DNA of 64,000 nt from Halobacteriales archaeon QS_4_66_20 (GTDB taxonomy: Archaea > Halobacteriota > Halobacteria > Halobacteriales > Haloarculaceae), in assembly GCA_003021015.1 (NCBI GenBank), contig PXRK01000023.1:48164-112163 (forward strand), given 5' to 3'. Numbering within the stretch: the stretch's first letter is position 1; each line of letters opens with the position of its first letter. The notes beneath the pieces are model-generated. The model searched no databases. It worked only from the letters and a program-made list of their open reading frames with translations, and was not told the DNA's origin. The position numbers and the translations under genes were made by a program. Positions 28,415-51,661 of the stretch are shown one piece after another.

Positions 28415-31174
28415 CTACTCCTCGATCTGGATGCCGGGCCGGCCGGGCGTCGCCTTCGCCGCGAGGTCCTCGGGCGCCTCGCCGGGCTCGGAGACGACCA
28501 CCTCGGCGTCGAACTCGCGTTCGAGCAGCCAGACCGCGCGCGTCAGCGCCTCGTACTCGCGCTCGGGCGGGAGCTGTTCGTCCAGGTGGCCCTCGCCGGC
28601 GAGGGCCTTCGCGTAGTCGGCGGCGGCCTCGCCGTGGCGCTGGAGCCACTCGTCGCCCATCAGCTGGCCGACGACGTTCCCGTCGAGATCGCGGGCCTGC
28701 TGGCGGGCGTAGTGCTTCCACTCGGGGGCGACCGCGATCTCGATCAGCGACGGGTCCTCGATGCCCGCCACGCCGACGATGTCCCGGACGTCCTCGCGGG
28801 TGTTCTCGACGAGCAGGCGCGCGGTCTCGTAGCCCGCCGGCTCGTCCGCCTCGGGCCAGTCAGCCTCGGCGATCAGGCCGTCGCGGCCGAGGTGGGCCCA
28901 CAGCTCCTCGGCGACGTGGGGCGCGACCGGCGCCAGCAGGCGCGCGACCGTCGACAGCGCACGCTCGAACGTCCCCTCGTCCGGATCGGTGTGGTCGACG
29001 TATCGGCGCAGCAGCGACGCCAGCTCCCGGATCGCCTGCAGCGCGTGGTTGAACCGGAACGCCTCGAACTCCTCGGTCGCGGTGGCGACCGTCGCCTCGA
29101 TCTCCCGGGCGACGTACTCGTCGATGGTGCCGCCGTCACCGTCCGCGGCTTCGGCGTCGCGGGTGTCGATCGCCCCCCCTGCGTACCGGGCGACCAGGTC
29201 GTGGACGTTCTGCAGGAACGCGTGGGCGGACTCGGCGCCCTCCTCGGTCCAGTCCAGCGCCTTCTCGGGCTGTGCGGCGTTCAGCATGAACAGCCGGCCG
29301 GTGTCGGCGCCGAACCGCTCGACGAACGGCGCCGGCGAGACGACGTTGCCCGTCGAGGAGCTCATCGCCGCGCCGTCCTTGCGGACCATCCCCTGGGTGA
29401 GCAGGTTCTCGAACGGCTCGCGGATCCCGTCGAGCAGCTCCATGTCGTCGAGCACCTTCGTGAAAAAGCGCGAGTAGATCAGATGCATCGTGGCGTGCTC
29501 GATGCCGCCGACGTACTGGTCGACCGGCATCCAGTCGGTCGCCTGCTCGCTGTCGAACGGCGCGTCGTCCAGCTCCGGCGAGATGAACCGCAGGAAGTAC
29601 CACGAGGAGTCGACGAACGTGTCCATCGTGTCGGTCTCGCGCTGGGCCGGCCCGCCGCAGTCCGGGCAGGTCGTCGTCTTCCACTCCTGAGCGGCGTCCA
29701 GCGGGTTTCCCGTCGTCCGGATGAACTCCGGCAGTTCCACGGGCAGGTCATCCTCGGGCACCGGTACGTAGCCACAGTCCGGACACTCGACGAACGGGAT
29801 CGGCGTCCCCCAGTAGCGCTGGCGGGAGATACACCAGTCCCGGAGGCTGTGGGCGGTCCGGAACTCGCCGTCGAACGCCTCGACGAACCGCTCGCGGGCC
29901 TCCGCACTGTCCAGCCCGTCGAACTCGCCGCTGTCGACCAGCACGCCGTCGGACTCAGTTCGCTCGTCCGACGAGCCCTCGATCTCCCCGAGGTCGAGGA
30001 CGCCGTCCTCGGTGTACGCTTGCTCCTGGACGTCGACGTTCTCAGGATCGACGTCTGCGTCCTCGGTCGGTTCGACCACCTGCCGGATCGGGATGTCATG
30101 CTCCTGGGCGAACGCGTGGTCGCGGTCGTCGTGGGCGGGGACGGCGTACAGCGCCCCGGTGCCGACATCCGCGAGCACGTAGTCGGCGACGTAGACGGGA
30201 ATCTCCTCGCCCGTGGCGGGGTTGGTCGCGTACTCGCCGGTGAACACGCCCGAGGTCTCGTCGACCTCCTCCTCATCGGCGTGTTCGACGCGGTGGATGT
30301 ACTCGGCGACGTCGTCGTCTTCCTCGGCGAGCTGCTGGGCGACGTCGTGGCCGGGCGAGAGCGCGAAAAAGGTCGCGCCGTAGATGGTATCGAGCCGGGT
30401 CGTGAAGATCTCGACGCTGTCGCCGGTCGTCAGCTCGAACTCGACGGAGGCGCCCTCCTGTTTGCCGATCCAGTTGTGCTGCATCTCCCGGACGTTCTCC
30501 GGCCAGCCGTCCAGCTCGTCGAGTTCGTCGTACAGCTCCTCGGCGTAGTCGGTGATCGTGAAAAACCACTGTTCGAGTTCGCGGTGCTCGATGGCGGTGT
30601 CACACCGCCAGCAGATCTCCACGTTGTTCTCGGTGTTGACGTTCTCGTCGGCCAGCACCGTCTCGCAGCCGGGACACCAGTTGAGCTCCGTCTCCGTGCG
30701 CTCGACCAGCCCCTCCTCGTAGAACTCCCGGAACAGCCACTGGTTCCACTGGAAGTACTCCGGCTCGCAGGTGGTGACTTCCCGCTGCCAGTCGAACCCC
30801 AGGCCCATCACGTTCATCTGCTCTTTCATCGCGGCGATGCAGTCCATCGTCCACCCGCGGGGGTCGACGTCGCGCTCGTTGGCGGCGTTCTCCGCGGGGA
30901 GCCCGAACGAGTCCCAGCCCATCGGGTGCAACACTGCCTCGCCCTGCATCCGCTTGTAGCGGGCGAACGCGTCGGTGATCGCGTAGTTGCGGACGTGGCC
31001 CATGTGCATCTCGCCCGACGGGTAGGGGAACATCGCGAGGACGTAGCTGGGGTCCTCGGCCCCGTCTTCGATGTGGAACACCTCCTCGTCGTCCCACCGC
31101 TGTTGCCACCGCGGCTCGATCTCCGCCGGATCGAACCGTCGCTCCTCCTGATCCGTCGCGTCGGCTCTACTCAT
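28415..31174 (-). CDS. leuS: Leucyl-tRNA synthetase
   Basis: 919 residues, class I synthetase with editing domain. HIGH-type motif is MHMGHVRNY (N-terminal third), the zinc module WCPGCETVL plus CWRCD is present, and a second Cys pair set occurs at ECPDCGYVP and CPDCGGP. The KMSKS loop reads DGAAMSSSTGNVVSP, so both motif lysines are replaced. The catalytic core looks bacterial-type; haloarchaea are reported to have acquired bacterial LeuRS. The ATG follows the pyrimidine/purine stretch CCCAGGGAGAAGT (minus strand), a good ribosome binding site. Confidence 0.95.
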   Translation of the reverse strand: MSRADATDQEERRFDPAEIEPRWQQRWDDEEVFHIEDGAEDPSYVLAMFPYPSGEMHMGHVRNYAITDAFARYKRMQGEAVLHPMGWDSFGLPAENAANERDVDPRGWTMDCIAAMKEQMNVMGLGFDWQREVTTCEPEYFQWNQWLFREFYEEGLVERTETELNWCPGCETVLADENVNTENNVEICWRCDTAIEHRELEQWFFTITDYAEELYDELDELDGWPENVREMQHNWIGKQEGASVEFELTTGDSVEIFTTRLDTIYGATFFALSPGHDVAQQLAEEDDDVAEYIHRVEHADEEEVDETSGVFTGEYATNPATGEEIPVYVADYVLADVGTGALYAVPAHDDRDHAFAQEHDIPIRQVVEPTEDADVDPENVDVQEQAYTEDGVLDLGEIEGSSDERTESDGVLVDSGEFDGLDSAEARERFVEAFDGEFRTAHSLRDWCISRQRYWGTPIPFVECPDCGYVPVPEDDLPVELPEFIRTTGNPLDAAQEWKTTTCPDCGGPAQRETDTMDTFVDSSWYFLRFISPELDDAPFDSEQATDWMPVDQYVGGIEHATMHLIYSRFFTKVLDDMELLDGIREPFENLLTQGMVRKDGAAMSSSTGNVVSPAPFVERFGADTGRLFMLNAAQPEKALDWTEEGAESAHAFLQNVHDLVARYAGGAIDTRDAEAADGDGGTIDEYVAREIEATVATATEEFEAFRFNHALQAIRELASLLRRYVDHTDPDEGTFERALSTVARLLAPVAPHVAEELWAHLGRDGLIAEADWPEADEPAGYETARLLVENTREDVRDIVGVAGIEDPSLIEIAVAPEWKHYARQQARDLDGNVVGQLMGDEWLQRHGEAAADYAKALAGEGHLDEQLPPEREYEALTRAVWLLEREFDAEVVVSEPGEAPEDLAAKATPGRPGIQIEE

Positions 31175-31242
31175 ACTTCTCCCTGGGACGTGCCCGGATT
31201 TCTATCTTTTGACAGTGCCGCCACAGCCGTGCCGGCTACTCA

Positions 31243-31350
31243 TACTGTCGGACGTAACTCTGTGTCACATCGTGACACTCTCCTGGCTGTATTCGCACGG
31301 TTGAACGGCTGAACGTGACGCGTGGCTCCACGAAATTACGTCCGACAGTA
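31243..31350. mobile_element. MITE-like element, 108 bp, copy 3
   Basis: Perfect 15-bp inverted repeats TACTGTCGGACGTAA/TTACGTCCGACAGTA, flanked by TCA at 31240-31242 and 31351-31353. The interior differs from copies 1 and 2. It sits upstream of leuS and downstream of the histidine kinase, and an IS200/IS605-type hairpin begins 8 bp to its right. Confidence 0.8.
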
Positions 31351-31360
31351 TCAAGCTCCT

Positions 31361-31397: not shown

Positions 31398-33395
31398 TCA
31401 CACTTCCGTAACGGCCGAGACGCCGGTGATCTCGAAGCGGGCACCGCCCGCGTCGCTCTCGGTGATGGTGACCGCCCAGCCGTGGGCCTCGACGACGTTC
31501 TGGACGATCCCCAGCCCGAAGCCCGTCCCGTCCTCGCTGGTCGTGTACCCCGAGTCGAACACCTGCTCGCGCTCCTCGGCCGGGATGCCGGGGCCGTCGT
31601 CGGCGGCGTAGAACCCCTCCTCGAGGTCGCCGACTGTGACGGTCACGTCGCTCCCGCCGGCACCCGAATCGTCAGTCTGTGGCTGACGGTTCGTGGAACC
31701 GTGTTCCACGGCGTCCTCGGGAGCGTGTGACCGAGGGCTCGTTGAGCCGTGCTCAACGGCGTCGTCAGCCGGAGGCTGTCGGCTCGTGGAACTGTGTTCC
31801 ACGGCGTTCCGGAACAGATTTTCGAACAGCTGCTGGAGGCGGTCCGGGTCGGCGCTGATCGTCGCCGTGGTGGTGACAGAAAGCGTCGCGTCGCCAGTGT
31901 CGACCGTCTCCCAGGCCCGCCGTGCGACCGCCGCCAGCTCGACCGGTTCCAGGCTGCCGATCGTCTCGCCGGCGCGTGCCAGTGCCAGCAGCTCCTCGAT
32001 CAGCGTCTCCATTCTGTCCTGGGAGCGCGCCACCGCCTCGAGGTGCTCCTGGGGCTCGTCACTCTCCATCGCCATCTCGAGGCGCCCCTCCGCGACGTTC
32101 AGCGGGTTCCGGAGGTCGTGGCTGACGATGCCGGCGAACTCCTCCAGGCGGTCGTTCTGGCGCTCCAGTTCCCGCTCGCGGTCGAGCCTGTCGAGCGCAC
32201 TCTCGGTGTGGCTCAACAGGAGCTCCGCGAACTCCACGTCCTCGTCGTCGAACGCCCCCGTCTCGGTGCTCACAGCCTGGAACACGCCCTGGTCGCCGAT
32301 GGGGACGCTCAGGCCCGACCGGTAGCTCTCCTTGGCCTTGTCGACGTCGTCTGCCTCTTCGATGTCGTTGACGACGTTCGACTCCGCGGTCTGGTAGGTC
32401 TTGCCGGCCTGGCCCTGGTCGACCCGCATCGGCCGGCTGCCGTCAGGGAGCGTCTCCGAGGAGGTCGCTCTCGGGACGAGCCACTCGCCCTCACGGGTCA
32501 TGATGGTACAGAGGTCCATCTCCAGGATGTCGGCCGCAGCCTCGACGGTCTGCTTGCACACCTCCTCGACCGTGTCCTCGGTCTGGATCGCCGGCGCCAC
32601 GCGGTGCAGCGCTTTCAGCACCGCCTGGCGCTGCTTGCGGTCGGTGATGTCCTGGATCGACCCGCGCACGCGGACGACCTCGCCGTCGACCGTCTCCGGG
32701 GAGCCCCGGGACCGGACCCAGCGGCGCTCGCCGTCGTCGCCGATCAACCGGAGCTCCATGTCGTACGGTTCCTGCTCCCTGATCACGCGCTGGAACGCCG
32801 CGCGGACCGTGGGCCGATCCTCCGGATGGTAGTACTCCATCGACCGATCCGGTGGCAGGTCCGTCCCGGGCTCCAGCCCGTGAATGCGCAGCGCCTCGTC
32901 GGTGACGTACGACGCATCCTCCCTGAGGTCGTACTCCCAGACGCCGATGTTCGCGACCTCCTCCGCCTCCGTCAGCAGGTCCAGCTGCCGTTCCAGTTTT
33001 TGCCCCATCCGGTACCCTTCGACGGCGTTCTCGATCCGATTGTGCAGCAGTTCGAACTGCTCGGTGCTGGCCCCTTTCTGGAGGTAGTCGGTCACGCCAG
33101 CCGAGATGGCGTCGCTGGCAACCGCCTCGCCACCCCTCCCTGTGAACAGGATGAACGGAAGCTCCGGGTAGCTCGCCCGCACTGCTTCGAGGAACTCGAT
33201 GCCGGTCATCCCCGGCATCTCGTAGTCGCTGACGACGCAGTCGTACTGGTCCGCCTCGAGCAGTTCGAGCCCCTCCGTGGCGCGCGTCGCGGTCTCGACC
33301 GTCACCCGGTCGTCGTCACGTGCGAGCATTGTCGCGGTTAACTCCCCGAAATCGGGGTCGTCGTCCACGTGTAACACGCGAACCGGGCCGTCCAT
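31398..33395 (-). CDS. Hybrid sensor histidine kinase (REC-PAS-GAF-HisKA-HATPase)
   Basis: 665 residues, soluble. Domain order: receiver 1-125 (acidic DDD at 11-13, phospho-Asp57 in VVSDYEMPG, Lys in LQKGAST), PAS about 145-255, GAF about 262-405, HisKA with His427 in GIVSHDLRNPL, HATPase from 510 with N-box NLFRNAVEH, DDGPGIP and GFGLGIV. Inside the N-box region the coding sequence repeats a (N/D)AVEH(G/S)ST(S/N) block three times (residues about 531-577), an in-frame expansion. This architecture is common in haloarchaea; the ligand is unknown. A TATA-like AGATATACAT lies about 27 bp upstream. Confidence 0.9.
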   Translation of the reverse strand: MDGPVRVLHVDDDPDFGELTATMLARDDDRVTVETATRATEGLELLEADQYDCVVSDYEMPGMTGIEFLEAVRASYPELPFILFTGRGGEAVASDAISAGVTDYLQKGASTEQFELLHNRIENAVEGYRMGQKLERQLDLLTEAEEVANIGVWEYDLREDASYVTDEALRIHGLEPGTDLPPDRSMEYYHPEDRPTVRAAFQRVIREQEPYDMELRLIGDDGERRWVRSRGSPETVDGEVVRVRGSIQDITDRKQRQAVLKALHRVAPAIQTEDTVEEVCKQTVEAAADILEMDLCTIMTREGEWLVPRATSSETLPDGSRPMRVDQGQAGKTYQTAESNVVNDIEEADDVDKAKESYRSGLSVPIGDQGVFQAVSTETGAFDDEDVEFAELLLSHTESALDRLDRERELERQNDRLEEFAGIVSHDLRNPLNVAEGRLEMAMESDEPQEHLEAVARSQDRMETLIEELLALARAGETIGSLEPVELAAVARRAWETVDTGDATLSVTTTATISADPDRLQQLFENLFRNAVEHSSTSRQPPADDAVEHGSTSPRSHAPEDAVEHGSTNRQPQTDDSGAGGSDVTVTVGDLEEGFYAADDGPGIPAEEREQVFDSGYTTSEDGTGFGLGIVQNVVEAHGWAVTITESDAGGARFEITGVSAVTEV
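31692..31803. repeat. Three palindromes repeated inside the kinase gene
   Basis: Each unit has 8-bp arms and a 3-base loop: CGTGGAAC-CGT-GTTCCACG at 31692-31710, CGTTGAGC-CGT-GCTCAACG at 31740-31758, and CGTGGAAC-TGT-GTTCCACG at 31785-31803. They are spaced 45-48 bp apart and encode AVEH(G/S)ST. Unit 2 differs from unit 1 by two changes in each arm; all four are synonymous and all four keep the arms paired. Confidence 0.85.
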
Positions 33396-45081: not shown

Positions 45082-45196
45082 TGTTCTCCCTGACGACTGG
45101 AAGCCGGAAAAACGTCTCGCTACGGCGATCCGGAGCCGTCGTTGCGTTCCCCTCGATCTCGCCGTTGTCCCTCTATTCCGTCTCGCCGTCGTCCCC

Positions 45197-45315
45197 CTAC
45201 TCCGTCTCGCCGTCGCTCCGTTCCGCCGTCCTGTCGTCACTCCGTTCCGCCGCCGTCCCGTCGTCGCTCCGTTCCGCCGCCGTCCCGTCGTCGCTCCGTT
45301 CCGCCGTCCTGTCGT
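45197..45315. repeat. Tandem 24/27-bp repeats at the 3' end of the DHH gene
   Basis: Four to five units of CCGTTCCGCCG(CCG)TCC-type sequence, two of them identical 27-mers. In the annotated frame they encode a basic tail; in the other frame they encode TAERSDDG / TAAERSDDG acidic repeats ending in TAG at 45197-45199 (minus strand). Confidence 0.75.
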
Positions 45316-46808
45316 CGGGCGCCGTTCTGTGCTCGCTCCCGGCGGTCGGGGGCGGCTCGTCGCCGTCGTCGGGCAGCGCTCGCCCCGGGCCGATGCCCTC
45401 CCCCTCCCCCCCCGTAGGTGTCGGCGGCTTCGAGGAATCGGTCAGCGACGACCGACTCGACGATTTGTTCCAGCGACTCCTCGCGCTCGTCGGTCGCCTC
45501 GAGGACGCCCATCGTGATCTGTGCGCCGGCCATGTCGACGTGGCCGCCGGCGCTGCCGATCTTTCCGAACGCGTCCCGCAGCGTCTCCCCCAGGTCGATC
45601 TCCGTACTGCGGGCCCGGGCGGAGACGTAGATCGTCCCGTCGGCGAAGCCGTAGACGACGCTCGTCGTCACGTTCTCGAGCATCAGCAGGCGGTCGGCCG
45701 CCTGCGCGAGCGCGTCGCGGTCAGCGAGCCGGCCGACGGAGCTGAGCAGGATCTCCCCCTCGATGCGCCGGTTGCGGATCGCGGCGGCGATCGTCTCGAA
45801 CGTCGGCGGGCTGATGCTCGGGGACTCGATGCGCTCCAGCGTGGCGAGGTCGGCCTGCGGCGTCAGCGTCGCCGCCGCCAGGAAGTCCCGCTGTGAGACC
45901 TCCCGGGAGAACGCCTGGGTGTCGACGTGGATGCCGAACAACAGCGCGGTCGCCACGTCGTCGGAGACGTCGAGCCCGAACTGGTCGAGGTAGTCCACCA
46001 GCAGCGTGCTCGTCGCGCCGACGTCGCTGCGGAGGTCGACGAATCGGGCGTCGACCGGCGTCCGCGGCGGGTGGTGGTCGATCACGATGTCGACCGGCAT
46101 CTCCTCGGGGAGCTGGTCGTTGACCCCTGGCCGCGAGTGATCGACCAGCGCCAGCCCGTCGAAGCGCTCGACCTCGCTGGACTCGGTGAGGTTGCGCAAC
46201 TCGAGGTTCAACACGTTGACGAACGCGCGGTTCTCCTGGTGGTTGATGCTGCCGAAGTAACAGACCTCGGCGTCGCAGCCGGTGGCGTCGGCCAGCGTCG
46301 CGAGGGCGACCCCGCTGGCGATGGCGTCGGGGTCGGGGTTGTCGTGGGTGACCACCGCCAGCGAGTCGAGTTCGCGGAGGATCCGCCAGAGCTGTCGCAT
46401 CTGTCGTCCGGCGTCGCCCGCCCGCTCCATCACGAACTGTGCGGTCACCCGACCCGGATCGATCACCCTGTCGACGATCGCCGAGAACGCCGCGTCATCG
46501 ATGGCGCTGTCGTTGCCGGCGTACGCCAGCGTGTACACGTCGGGGAACACGCGCTGTGCAGCGCGAACTGCCGCGAGGTTGTGCTCGCCCGCCGTGTCGA
46601 GCGCGGCGACGACGTCGACGTCGTCGAACCGCTCCAGCGTCGCGGGATCGGTCGGGTCGAGCTTGAACACCGAAACGCCGGTCTCGTGGAGCGATTCGGC
46701 CCGTTTCTCGTCGGCGGTGACGACCTGTACTGTGCCCGACTGCTCCTGAAGCGATCCGGCGACGGAACTCACGAGCGGCCCGCTGCCCAGAATCAGCCGG
46801 TCGACCAT
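45237..46808 (-). CDS. TrkA-N plus DHH/DHHA1 phosphoesterase, probable 3' frameshift
   Basis: Residues 1-115 are a TrkA-N-like Rossmann domain (RLILGSGPLVSSVAGSL); 130-300 DHH phosphoesterase with THDNPDPDAIASG, LVDHSRP and the signature DHHPP; 320-470 DHHA1 with the GGHVDMAGAQI motif. Such proteins are nanoRNase or cyclic-dinucleotide phosphodiesterase relatives common in haloarchaea. After ADTYGG the frame passes an 8-G run (45406-45413) and becomes Arg-rich. With one G fewer the protein continues in an acidic haloarchaeal style to a TAG at 45197. Start MVDRLIL. Confidence 0.85.
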   Translation of the reverse strand: MVDRLILGSGPLVSSVAGSLQEQSGTVQVVTADEKRAESLHETGVSVFKLDPTDPATLERFDDVDVVAALDTAGEHNLAAVRAAQRVFPDVYTLAYAGNDSAIDDAAFSAIVDRVIDPGRVTAQFVMERAGDAGRQMRQLWRILRELDSLAVVTHDNPDPDAIASGVALATLADATGCDAEVCYFGSINHQENRAFVNVLNLELRNLTESSEVERFDGLALVDHSRPGVNDQLPEEMPVDIVIDHHPPRTPVDARFVDLRSDVGATSTLLVDYLDQFGLDVSDDVATALLFGIHVDTQAFSREVSQRDFLAAATLTPQADLATLERIESPSISPPTFETIAAAIRNRRIEGEILLSSVGRLADRDALAQAADRLLMLENVTTSVVYGFADGTIYVSARARSTEIDLGETLRDAFGKIGSAGGHVDMAGAQITMGVLEATDEREESLEQIVESVVADRFLEAADTYGGGGGGHRPGASAARRRRRAAPDRRERAQNGARRQDGGTERRRDGGGTERRRDGGGTE

Positions 46809-50440: not shown

Positions 50441-51661
50441 TTACCGTGGCGCTTGTCGGTAGATCAGGTTGCGCTGGACGGGGTTGGTCCCCTCGTAGAT
50501 GACGGGGACGCGGACGTCGCGGTAGACGCGGGCAATCCGGCGGTTCGTGAGCACCGAGCGGCCGCCGTGGAGCTGCATCCCGCGTTCGGCACAGTCGACG
50601 GCCGCTTCGGTCGCGGTGGCTTTCGAGAGTGCGGCCCAGTAGCCGGGCTGGTCGCCGTTCGCGACCTTCTCGGCGGCCCGCCAGGTCAGCGCCCGCGCGG
50701 ACTCGAACTCCATGCGCATCTCCGCGAGGTCGTGCTGGACGGCCTGGAACTCGTTGACCGAACGGCCGAACGCCTCGCGGTCGTGGACGAACGCGGAGGC
50801 CTCCTCGATGGCGGCGGCGGCCAGCCCCAGCCCGTGACCGGAGACGACGACGCGGCCGTGGTTGAAAAACTCCGCGAGCATGTAGAAGCCGGCGCCCTCG
50901 ACGCCGATCAGGTGGTCCTCGGGGATCCGGCAGTCGTCGAACGTGATGTGGGCCTGTTTCGAGGCGCGAAACGCCATCTTCTCGGGGATGTGCTCGGCGT
51001 CGTAGCCGTCGGTATCGGTCGGGACGATGAACAGCGAGTAGTTGCCGTAGCGGTTGTCCGGATCCGACCCGGTCTTGGCGTAGACGGTCACCCAGTCGGC
51101 CTCGACGCCGTTGCCGACCCAGTACTTCTCGCCATCGAGCACCCACTCGTCGCCGTCCTGGGTCGCCTCAGTCGACGCAGGGCTCGCCGAGTCCTGCTCG
51201 GCGGTGTCTTTCTCGGCGGTGTCTTTCTCGGCAGTGGTCGACATCCCGGCGAGGTCGCTGCCGGTGTCGGGCTCGGAGACGGCGAGCCCGGTCCGCTGCT
51301 GGTTCTCGGCGACCGGCCGGATGTACTCCTCTTTTTGCTCCTCGCTCCCGTGGTCAACCACGATCTCGGCGCCGAAGCTCGCGAGCTGCAGCGTCAGCGC
51401 GATGCCGCCGTCGGCGCGGTAGAACTCCTCGGCGATTGCGAGCACCTCCGAAAGCGAGAGTCCGCGGCCGCCGTACTCCTCGGGGATGTCTTGGGCGACC
51501 AGCCCCGCGTCCATCCCCTCCTGGAGGATCTCCTCGGCGTACTCGCCGCGCTCGAAGTACTCCTCGGCGTTCGGCGCGATGTGTTCCTGTGCGAACTCCC
51601 GCGCTTCCTGTTTGACCGCACGAGCCTCCTCCGGGACGATGCTATTGTCGAGTAGCTCCAT
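50441..51661 (-). CDS. Acyl-CoA dehydrogenase
   Basis: 406 residues. FAD enzyme making the enoyl-CoA double bond in fatty acid or branched-chain catabolism. Seen: IPEEYGGRGLSL, the signatures TGLAVSEPDTGSDLAGM and QLHGGRSVLTNRRIARVYRDVR, and the conserved IYEGTNPVQRNLI C-terminus where the base or specificity loop lies. Residues about 139-155 carry TAEKD TAEKD TAEQD repeats encoded by a 15-bp tandem repeat, inserted in the middle beta domain. Start after AGGAGGAGT. Confidence 0.93.
   Translation of the reverse strand: MELLDNSIVPEEARAVKQEAREFAQEHIAPNAEEYFERGEYAEEILQEGMDAGLVAQDIPEEYGGRGLSLSEVLAIAEEFYRADGGIALTLQLASFGAEIVVDHGSEEQKEEYIRPVAENQQRTGLAVSEPDTGSDLAGMSTTAEKDTAEKDTAEQDSASPASTEATQDGDEWVLDGEKYWVGNGVEADWVTVYAKTGSDPDNRYGNYSLFIVPTDTDGYDAEHIPEKMAFRASKQAHITFDDCRIPEDHLIGVEGAGFYMLAEFFNHGRVVVSGHGLGLAAAAIEEASAFVHDREAFGRSVNEFQAVQHDLAEMRMEFESARALTWRAAEKVANGDQPGYWAALSKATATEAAVDCAERGMQLHGGRSVLTNRRIARVYRDVRVPVIYEGTNPVQRNLIYRQAPR
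51191..51240. repeat. 15-bp tandem repeat inside the acyl-CoA dehydrogenase gene
   Basis: Three units of GTCTTTCTCGGCGGT-type sequence (first two nearly identical, the third diverged) encode TAEKD, TAEKD and TAEQD. The surface loop between two beta strands tolerates this; it is a simple in-frame expansion. Confidence 0.7.

Follow-up and report, generated by a model that had tools for sequence, protein, structure and literature searches.

In-frame two-hairpin DNA units at the N-box of haloarchaeal histidine kinases: a probable branch of a REP/PATE-like element family

A sensor histidine kinase gene in the 64,000-nucleotide stretch of DNA analysed here (the window) carries three units at its N-box, which are best read as tandem in-frame copies of a haloarchaeal REP/PATE-type element of 45-66 bp that consists of two hairpins, encodes no enzyme, and spreads by recombination or hairpin transposition (rough probability, 0.72). 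The unit structure, the covariation of its stems, the gain of whole units, the existence of empty sites, and the occurrence of a wider family on both gene strands and in apparently intergenic DNA are shown. The identity of the element is well supported; the mechanism of spreading is inferred, and neither transposition nor a template switch was directly observed.

Each unit is composed of two DNA hairpins: hairpin 1 is the palindrome encoding AVEHGST, and hairpin 2 is formed by the adjoining spacer (Table 1). In protein order, the N-box region reads NLFRN, AVEHSST-SRQPPADD, AVEHGST-SPRSHAPED, AVEHGST-NRQPQTDD, and SGAGGSDVTVTV. On the plus strand, the arms of hairpin 1 occupy positions 31692-31699/31703-31710 and 31740-31747/31751-31758 (both encoding AVEHGST) and 31785-31792/31796-31803 (encoding AVEHSST). 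The sequence-only reading of the window had reported these three palindromes with 8-bp arms, as well as two differences per arm between its units 1 and 2, all four synonymous and with pairing intact; the coordinates and the comparison both held, the four differences being at codon positions V3, E3, G3, and S3. That reading overlooked the spacer hairpins, and the palindrome is one half of a two-hairpin unit. The 156-nt array region has a predicted fold of -73.4 kcal/mol, compared with -54.4 +/- 4.2 for dinucleotide shuffles (z = -4.5).

Table 1. Features of the window and insertions of units in other genes (CM, covariance model; positions refer to the window).
Feature	Position	Strand	Size or content	Details
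Sensor histidine kinase (receiver, PAS, GAF, HisKA, HATPase_c)	31398-33395	minus	665 aa	ORF and Pfam; array host
Unit a	31761-31805	minus	45 bp, AVEHSST-SRQPPADD	Hairpin 1 31785-31803, spacer hairpin 31766-31778; CM 35.2 bits
Unit b	31713-31760	minus	48 bp, AVEHGST-SPRSHAPED	Hairpin 1 31740-31758, hairpin 2 31715-31736; CM 76.8 bits, 14/14 pairs
Unit c	31668-31712	minus	45 bp, AVEHGST-NRQPQTDD	Hairpin 1 31692-31710, spacer hairpin 31670-31688
Generic double hairpin in leucyl-tRNA synthetase (LeuRS) gene (28415-31174, minus)	29945-30004	plus	57-bp in-frame insertion	CM 39.7 bits
Probable degenerate copy, acyl-CoA dehydrogenase-like gene (named from sequence only)	51152-51205	minus	SASPASTEATQD	CM 33.6 bits
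Acyl-CoA synthetase			+48 bp	Filled GGGGAAGAC, 48 bp, GAGGAG; empty GGGGAGGAC directly followed by GAGGAG in L262
VLRF1 release factor			+48 bp	Filled L376; empty L378
Rhodanese/metallo-beta-lactamase (MBL) protein			+48 bp	Filled L396; empty L397
Hypothetical protein, 206 aa			+96 bp	Orthologs empty
Rce1-like protease L330			several units

Other repeats were observed in the same DNA: a 23-bp inverted repeat (87% complementary, 64-nt gap) at 31242-31351, between the LeuRS and kinase genes; GC-rich tandem repeats with periods of 24, 27, 51, and 54 at 45157-45327; and a 15-bp tandem repeat (AEKDT) adjoining the probable degenerate copy (51152-51236). In another kinase gene of the same genome (L008, contig C44, near position 1450), the frame breaks at the first repeat unit, which could be an assembly error or a genuine frameshift at the hairpin.

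The two window units alone are weak evidence of maintained pairing because the first two positions of the VEHGST codons pair by nature (V-T, E-S, and H-G), which leaves hairpin 1 with only three free pairs, V3-S3, E3-G3, and A3-T3. The strength of the evidence comes from other genomes and not from the window gene. Coding sites for VEHGST were present in 268 of the 394 sampled Halobacteria genomes, and the reversed pattern was nearly absent. Across 160 sites, V3-S3 was a Watson-Crick pair in 130 (72 expected; maximum of 94 in 10,000 shuffles) and E3-G3 in 110 (68 expected; maximum of 90 in 10,000 shuffles). These sites are pattern matches and may contain a few chance coding sites; chance sites in unrelated proteins (L020, L156, and L163) were left out of the unit counts. 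Among the units themselves, with 9-aa or 8-aa spacers, each of the three free pairs was paired in 79-95 of 95-105 units, compared with 44-73 expected.

A blind scan of all column pairs in the 9-aa-spacer units recovered two nested hairpins and nothing besides, and the nonsynonymous pairs 27-42 and 28-41 ranked among the strongest; in the 8-aa-spacer units, the scan gave additional weaker pairs, (1,45) and (0,46), which reflect an A/S alternation. In 52 distinct and diverse 48-nt units, 95.1% of cells were paired, and the covariation score was 0.431 against 0.145 +/- 0.012 for shuffles (0/500) and at most 0.086 for slid structures. The shuffles keep the relatedness between units, and the slid controls remove part of it. 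Among unit pairs with exactly two differing sites, the two differences were partners in a single stem pair in 9 of 58 (0.79 expected). Mismatches confined to a single arm exist (11 unit pairs lie one step apart), and therefore the paired changes are not all simultaneous.

The amino acid sequence of the spacers follows the same pairing. The stem of hairpin 2 has the layout CCT-XXX ... YYZ-AGG, in which a change of X is accompanied by a change of the partner codons, as in (i) SPR..PED (CCTCGG/CCGAGG); (ii) SPD..RQD (CCTGAC/GTCAGG); (iii) SPP..QED (CCTCCT/AGGAGG); and (iv) SPR..HED (CCTCGT/ACGAGG). In the 45-bp units, RP..AD alternates with RT..SD because stem pairing ties the partner codons together. 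Where the spacer has another length, it still forms a hairpin but its sequence is unrelated, as with AGTCAGAACGC-AAC-GCGTTCTGAC in L116 and CCGGGATCC-ACC-GGATCCCGG in L023. The loop positions of hairpin 2 are less variable than its stem. T-ending codons such as GCT and ACT are expected to be rare in these genomes, yet the third-position T was retained in 182 of 187 kinase units; this T is kept because the loop TCGC..GCTC is shared with the wider family described below.

In an AlphaFold2 model built with 35 related sequences, confidence was high for the N-box helix (106-126) and for the strand that follows (174-180), and the insert between them had a pLDDT of about 51 and no secondary structure; the insert is thus predicted to be a tolerated, disordered loop. 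When synonymous codons were redrawn, the stability of the whole inserts exceeded expectation only slightly (mean z = -0.94; flanks, -0.12 and -0.15) because the choice of amino acids itself carries much of the pairing. It is likely that self-pairing of the strand, and not protein need, chooses the amino acids in a floppy loop of many kinases.

The pairing is likely to be maintained in DNA. In both unit types, G-U occupied 47 cells (168 expected) and A-C 71 cells (207 expected); in the wider family, the two were found in 10 and 17 cells, respectively. G-U is no better kept than A-C, and DNA pairing is therefore favoured over RNA pairing. Copies of the element lie on either strand of genes, with antisense copies in the window LeuRS gene and in L427, L428, L432, L441, and L444. 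In an Rfam search, only a tRNA passed, and the kinase locus matched HgcC at 28.6 bits (gathering score, 50).

Whole units are gained at the kinase site. The unit count falls from three in the window kinase to two in its 97%-identical ortholog (L043), one in the next ortholog, and zero in more distant homologs. Unit a is the extra unit relative to L043, and unit c alone is also present in both close orthologs, where its spacer is SRQPPADD. The DNA of the SRQPPADD spacer is identical in a paralogous kinase (contig C38) of only 52% identity. Unit similarity was 0.885 between different kinase genes of one genome, compared with 0.845 across species and 0.781 across genera (label permutation, p<0.0005). 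The 197 distinct kinase-type units were nearly all in kinases, with a few in other genes and the frame always the same; none of the 197 was seen in intergenic DNA. All 30 matching genomes in a phylum-wide sample were Halobacteria, and the unit model had no match outside this class in that sample; for part of the sample, the absence is inferred from the sort order. The window's own genome has 17 model matches. The E-values of the covariance model are rough, and the genome sets are samples.

Units also occur in unrelated genes, five of which have orthologs with an empty site (Table 1). The LeuRS element, which lies on the strand opposite to the gene, is present in L479-L481 and absent from L482-L490 (where listed) and L493; an empty ortholog such as L485 reads ..TEDGVLVNSGEY.., where the window protein has ..TEDGVL, 19 aa, VDSGEF... 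In L481 (G405 LeuRS), the insert is adjoined by a further 10-aa tandem duplication, SDGVLVNSDE. The putative target ACGCCG is full or nearly full at the kinase site (..GGAACGCCGTC..) and at the empty sites of the LeuRS, MBL, and 206-aa genes, and only partial at the VLRF1 and acyl-CoA synthetase sites.

The weaker matches of the covariance model are genuine double hairpins, but of a different style, whose generic architecture is stem 1 - loop - stem 1' - CGAGCC - stem 2 - TCGC..GCTC - stem 2' - GAC. The pattern CGAGCC-N5-TCGCNNCGCTC had up to 45 exact matches per genome (highest in Halorussus), compared with about zero for the reversed pattern. At the five variable stem pairs of hairpin 2 in this wider family, 62-74 of 79 distinct sequences were paired against 30-38 expected. 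When 1.56 Mb of retrieved loci were scanned for the structure, 124 distinct double hairpins emerged, compared with 2 after reversal of the sequence; the loci are enriched for matches, but the control was made from the very same DNA. The left flank is commonly ACGCCG or ACACCG and the right flank GACR. Of 59 generic copies, 51% are bounded by a direct repeat of at least 5 nt, although the repeat could be the element's own end. Generic copies appear to be both intergenic and genic, as judged from open frames and not from annotation. It is very likely that the kinase units are the in-frame branch of this wider REP/PATE-like element, a conclusion that does not rest on any sequence comparison with PATEs. 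Several locations of generic copies were observed in passing: three genomes have one between tRNA-Val(TAC) and tRNA-Phe as called by ARAGORN (L457, L463, and L464, near position 1500), starting directly after the tRNA-like TTCGAATCC; others adjoin T-tracts, like those close to the ends of genes; and one (L445, near 440) lies within an apparent IS605 tnpB gene.

The sequence-only reading had further proposed that the palindrome itself is conserved and has spread in frame at a place that tolerates loops, and every test run supported this. It would have been refuted by the same repeats with unpaired synonymous sites in other genomes; such a pattern failed to appear, and the repeat-bearing kinases of other genomes show paired sites. 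Its suggested search for the palindrome in other genes was positive, the unit being present in unrelated genes. Its choice between a DNA and an RNA palindrome is narrowed in favour of DNA, and a refinement is added: DNA pairing governs amino acid changes and not synonymous changes alone. Slippage, one of its two proposed routes, held in part, since simple slippage is insufficient and whole units enter unrelated genes at ACGCCG-like sites; the other, hairpin-mediated conversion, stays an inference.

We propose the following course of events. (i) Copies would insert at or beside ACGCCG-like sites, either by microhomology-guided recombination or through a trans-acting IS200/IS605-type enzyme. (ii) The N-box of many paralogous kinases (..AAC GCC GTC GAG CAC GG..), located before a loop-tolerant turn, would be such a target, and the homology of the N-boxes would allow exchange between kinases, by which arrays would grow at this site. 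(iii) Template switching during replication would copy one arm onto the other and sometimes invert the loop, keeping the arms complementary. (iv) The encoded peptide would be tolerated as a disordered loop, its sequence following the hairpin. Microhomology with the array junction (GAGGAC GCCGTC GAA) would explain both the unit-length insertions and the preference for kinases.

In coding DNA, template switching at inverted repeats reportedly makes the two arms alike and flips the spacer (PMC8604942); it is also reported to give rise to stems and to preserve them (PMC8794818). In three loci (L023, L129, and L339), an in-frame loop inversion gives VEPCST in place of VEHGST (inverted hairpin 1); these inversions and the 9 of 58 double changes fit such switching. 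The odds that template switching is the cause of the maintained pairing are nonetheless evenly balanced. Single-arm mismatches leave slow compensatory selection or slow repair of the arms as possibilities that are not excluded. The low variation of the hairpin 2 loop is not explained by template switching and may point to a recognised motif. Whether microhomology recombination rather than a transposase is the spreading route could likewise go either way. On a bolder reading, which is possible but less likely than not, a class-wide hairpin family without a dedicated enzyme arises, stays paired, and multiplies through replication template switching and recombination, and so sets the amino acid sequence of sensor kinases, among other proteins, by the rules of DNA pairing.

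The main rival for the spread is a non-autonomous relative of IS200/IS605 (a PATE or REP) that would be moved as single-stranded DNA, to a place beside ACRCCG, by a trans-acting Y1 transposase that recognises its two hairpins. This remains possible. It is favoured by the two subterminal hairpins, the apparent short target oligonucleotide, and the lack of coding capacity; by the fixed linker CGAGCC and loop TCGC..GCTC, which together with free stems resemble protein recognition; and by the 52-bp, terminal-only PATEs of Haloquadratum, which derive from IS605 and appear mobile (PMC3119063). Against it, (i) the window's genome has a single Y1_Tnp match (57/121 positions, in a 66-aa frame) despite its 17 model matches; (ii) flank repeats of at least 5 nt occur in about half of the generic copies, whereas PATEs and IS605 reportedly make no target duplication (PMC3119063); and (iii) the inserts measure exactly one or two units, which suits an origin by copying out of a tandem array.

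Selection on the hairpins in mRNA (for stability, translation pausing, or processing of kinase messages) is unlikely. Strong covariation is the usual mark of a selected RNA structure, and the array fold is stable; however, G-U is not preferred over A-C, copies lie antisense to genes and within many unrelated proteins, the spacer hairpins are of unrelated sequence, and no Rfam match exceeds its gathering score. Plain slippage within each kinase, with the palindromy inherited from a single ancestor, is very unlikely as the sole process, although it probably contributes to array growth. Arrays of near-identical units (L035, L075, and L293) and the differing copy number of close orthologs speak for it, but neighbouring units of one gene can be of different type, identical spacers occur in different genes of one genome, and whole units are found in unrelated genes with empty orthologs. 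A favoured AVEHGST peptide whose codons are complementary by accident is all but excluded, and is refuted for the aligned units: the first and second codon positions are naturally complementary and codon bias (GTC with TCG, GAG with GGC) is enough to make accidental VEHGST sites pair as well (e.g., L156 and L163), but shuffles with codon frequencies preserved come nowhere near the observed pairing at any of the three free pairs, hairpin 2 amino acids change in pairs, the insert is predicted to be disordered, and the third-position T persists. Carriage by viruses or plasmids was considered and rejected, with no phage match and only two plasmid matches, annotated as a sensor histidine kinase and a PAS-domain protein.

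The preferred reading, in-frame copies of a REP/PATE-type element, has several implications. The units provide many natural cases in which compensatory base changes produce paired amino acid changes, and they let the origin of covariation (selection or template switching) be tested in DNA without an obvious RNA role. Covariation in coding regions is commonly taken as RNA structure, which it probably is not here. Palindromic inserts that lie in frame have been known chiefly in bacteria, and an archaeal family now joins them; the units also show a route by which a kinase family gains variable disordered loops. AVEHGST-like peptides should, with due caution, not be taken as conserved protein motifs.

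The unit was compared with known classes of small palindromic DNA. The REP criterion of many dispersed short palindromic hairpins per genome is met. The GTAG/CGTC motif outside the stem is not: the ends are ACRCCG and GAC, the stem base is CG, and CGTC occurs only in some stems. For the dedicated Y1 transposase of REP/RAYT systems, only the one partial Y1_Tnp match was found, in the incomplete assembly of the window's own genome, the only one considered. Near-terminal palindromes without coding capacity meet the PATE/IS605 criterion, and in-frame insertion in unrelated genes with empty orthologs meets that of the Rickettsia palindromic elements (RPEs). Compared with a MITE, the unit has two internal hairpins and not end-to-end inverted repeats.

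The palindrome-associated transposable elements (PATEs) of Haloquadratum walsbyi, which are of IS605-type origin and include 52-bp terminal-only forms, are likewise haloarchaeal and transposase-less, with a length of about 50 bp when terminal-only, and palindromes near their ends; they also have a short targeting sequence (PMC3119063), to which the ACGCCG-like sites may correspond. Unlike the hairpin units, whose flanks are often repeated, PATEs are linked to the ends of IS605 and reportedly make no target duplication (PMC3119063); in addition, the hairpin units lie in frame within genes and in tandem at one kinase site, with free stems and a fixed linker and loop. The GTAG/CGTC REP families are also small dispersed hairpins, often paired and sometimes in frame in genes, and the CGTC families have no linked transposase (PMC3733652); by contrast, the haloarchaeal elements have the linker CGAGCC and lack an unpaired GTAG end, and a large branch of them lies in frame at one homologous protein site. 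The text of that REP survey contains no word starting with "Halo" (PMC3733652). RPEs are similarly in-frame palindromic DNA in unrelated proteins, but measure about 150 bp and lie in unrelated genes (PMC10969869), and the haloarchaeal units, of 45-66 bp, form tandem arrays concentrated in kinase N-boxes. Palindromes in the mitochondrial coding DNA of Nematomorpha also retain perfect pairing and protein coding together, but reach 284 bp in conserved core protein and are not a small mobile cassette (PMC6649704). Template-switch homogenisation of inverted repeats should make their arms alike, invert spacers, and link nonsynonymous changes to one another. All three effects are seen in the haloarchaeal units, although the reported cases are individual mutation events, in genes of yeast and in RNA genes, and not a dispersed element family (PMC8604942, PMC8794818).

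No earlier description of the kinase units or of the CGAGCC/TCGC-GCTC family was found in the open-licence literature searched, and most subscription papers were outside its scope. Already known are small hairpin repeats that sometimes lie within genes, namely REPs (PMC3733652), RPEs (PMC10969869), and PATEs (PMC3119063); apparently new, within the literature searched, are the family itself, its combination of free stems with a fixed linker and loop, the in-frame kinase arrays, and the paired amino acid changes.
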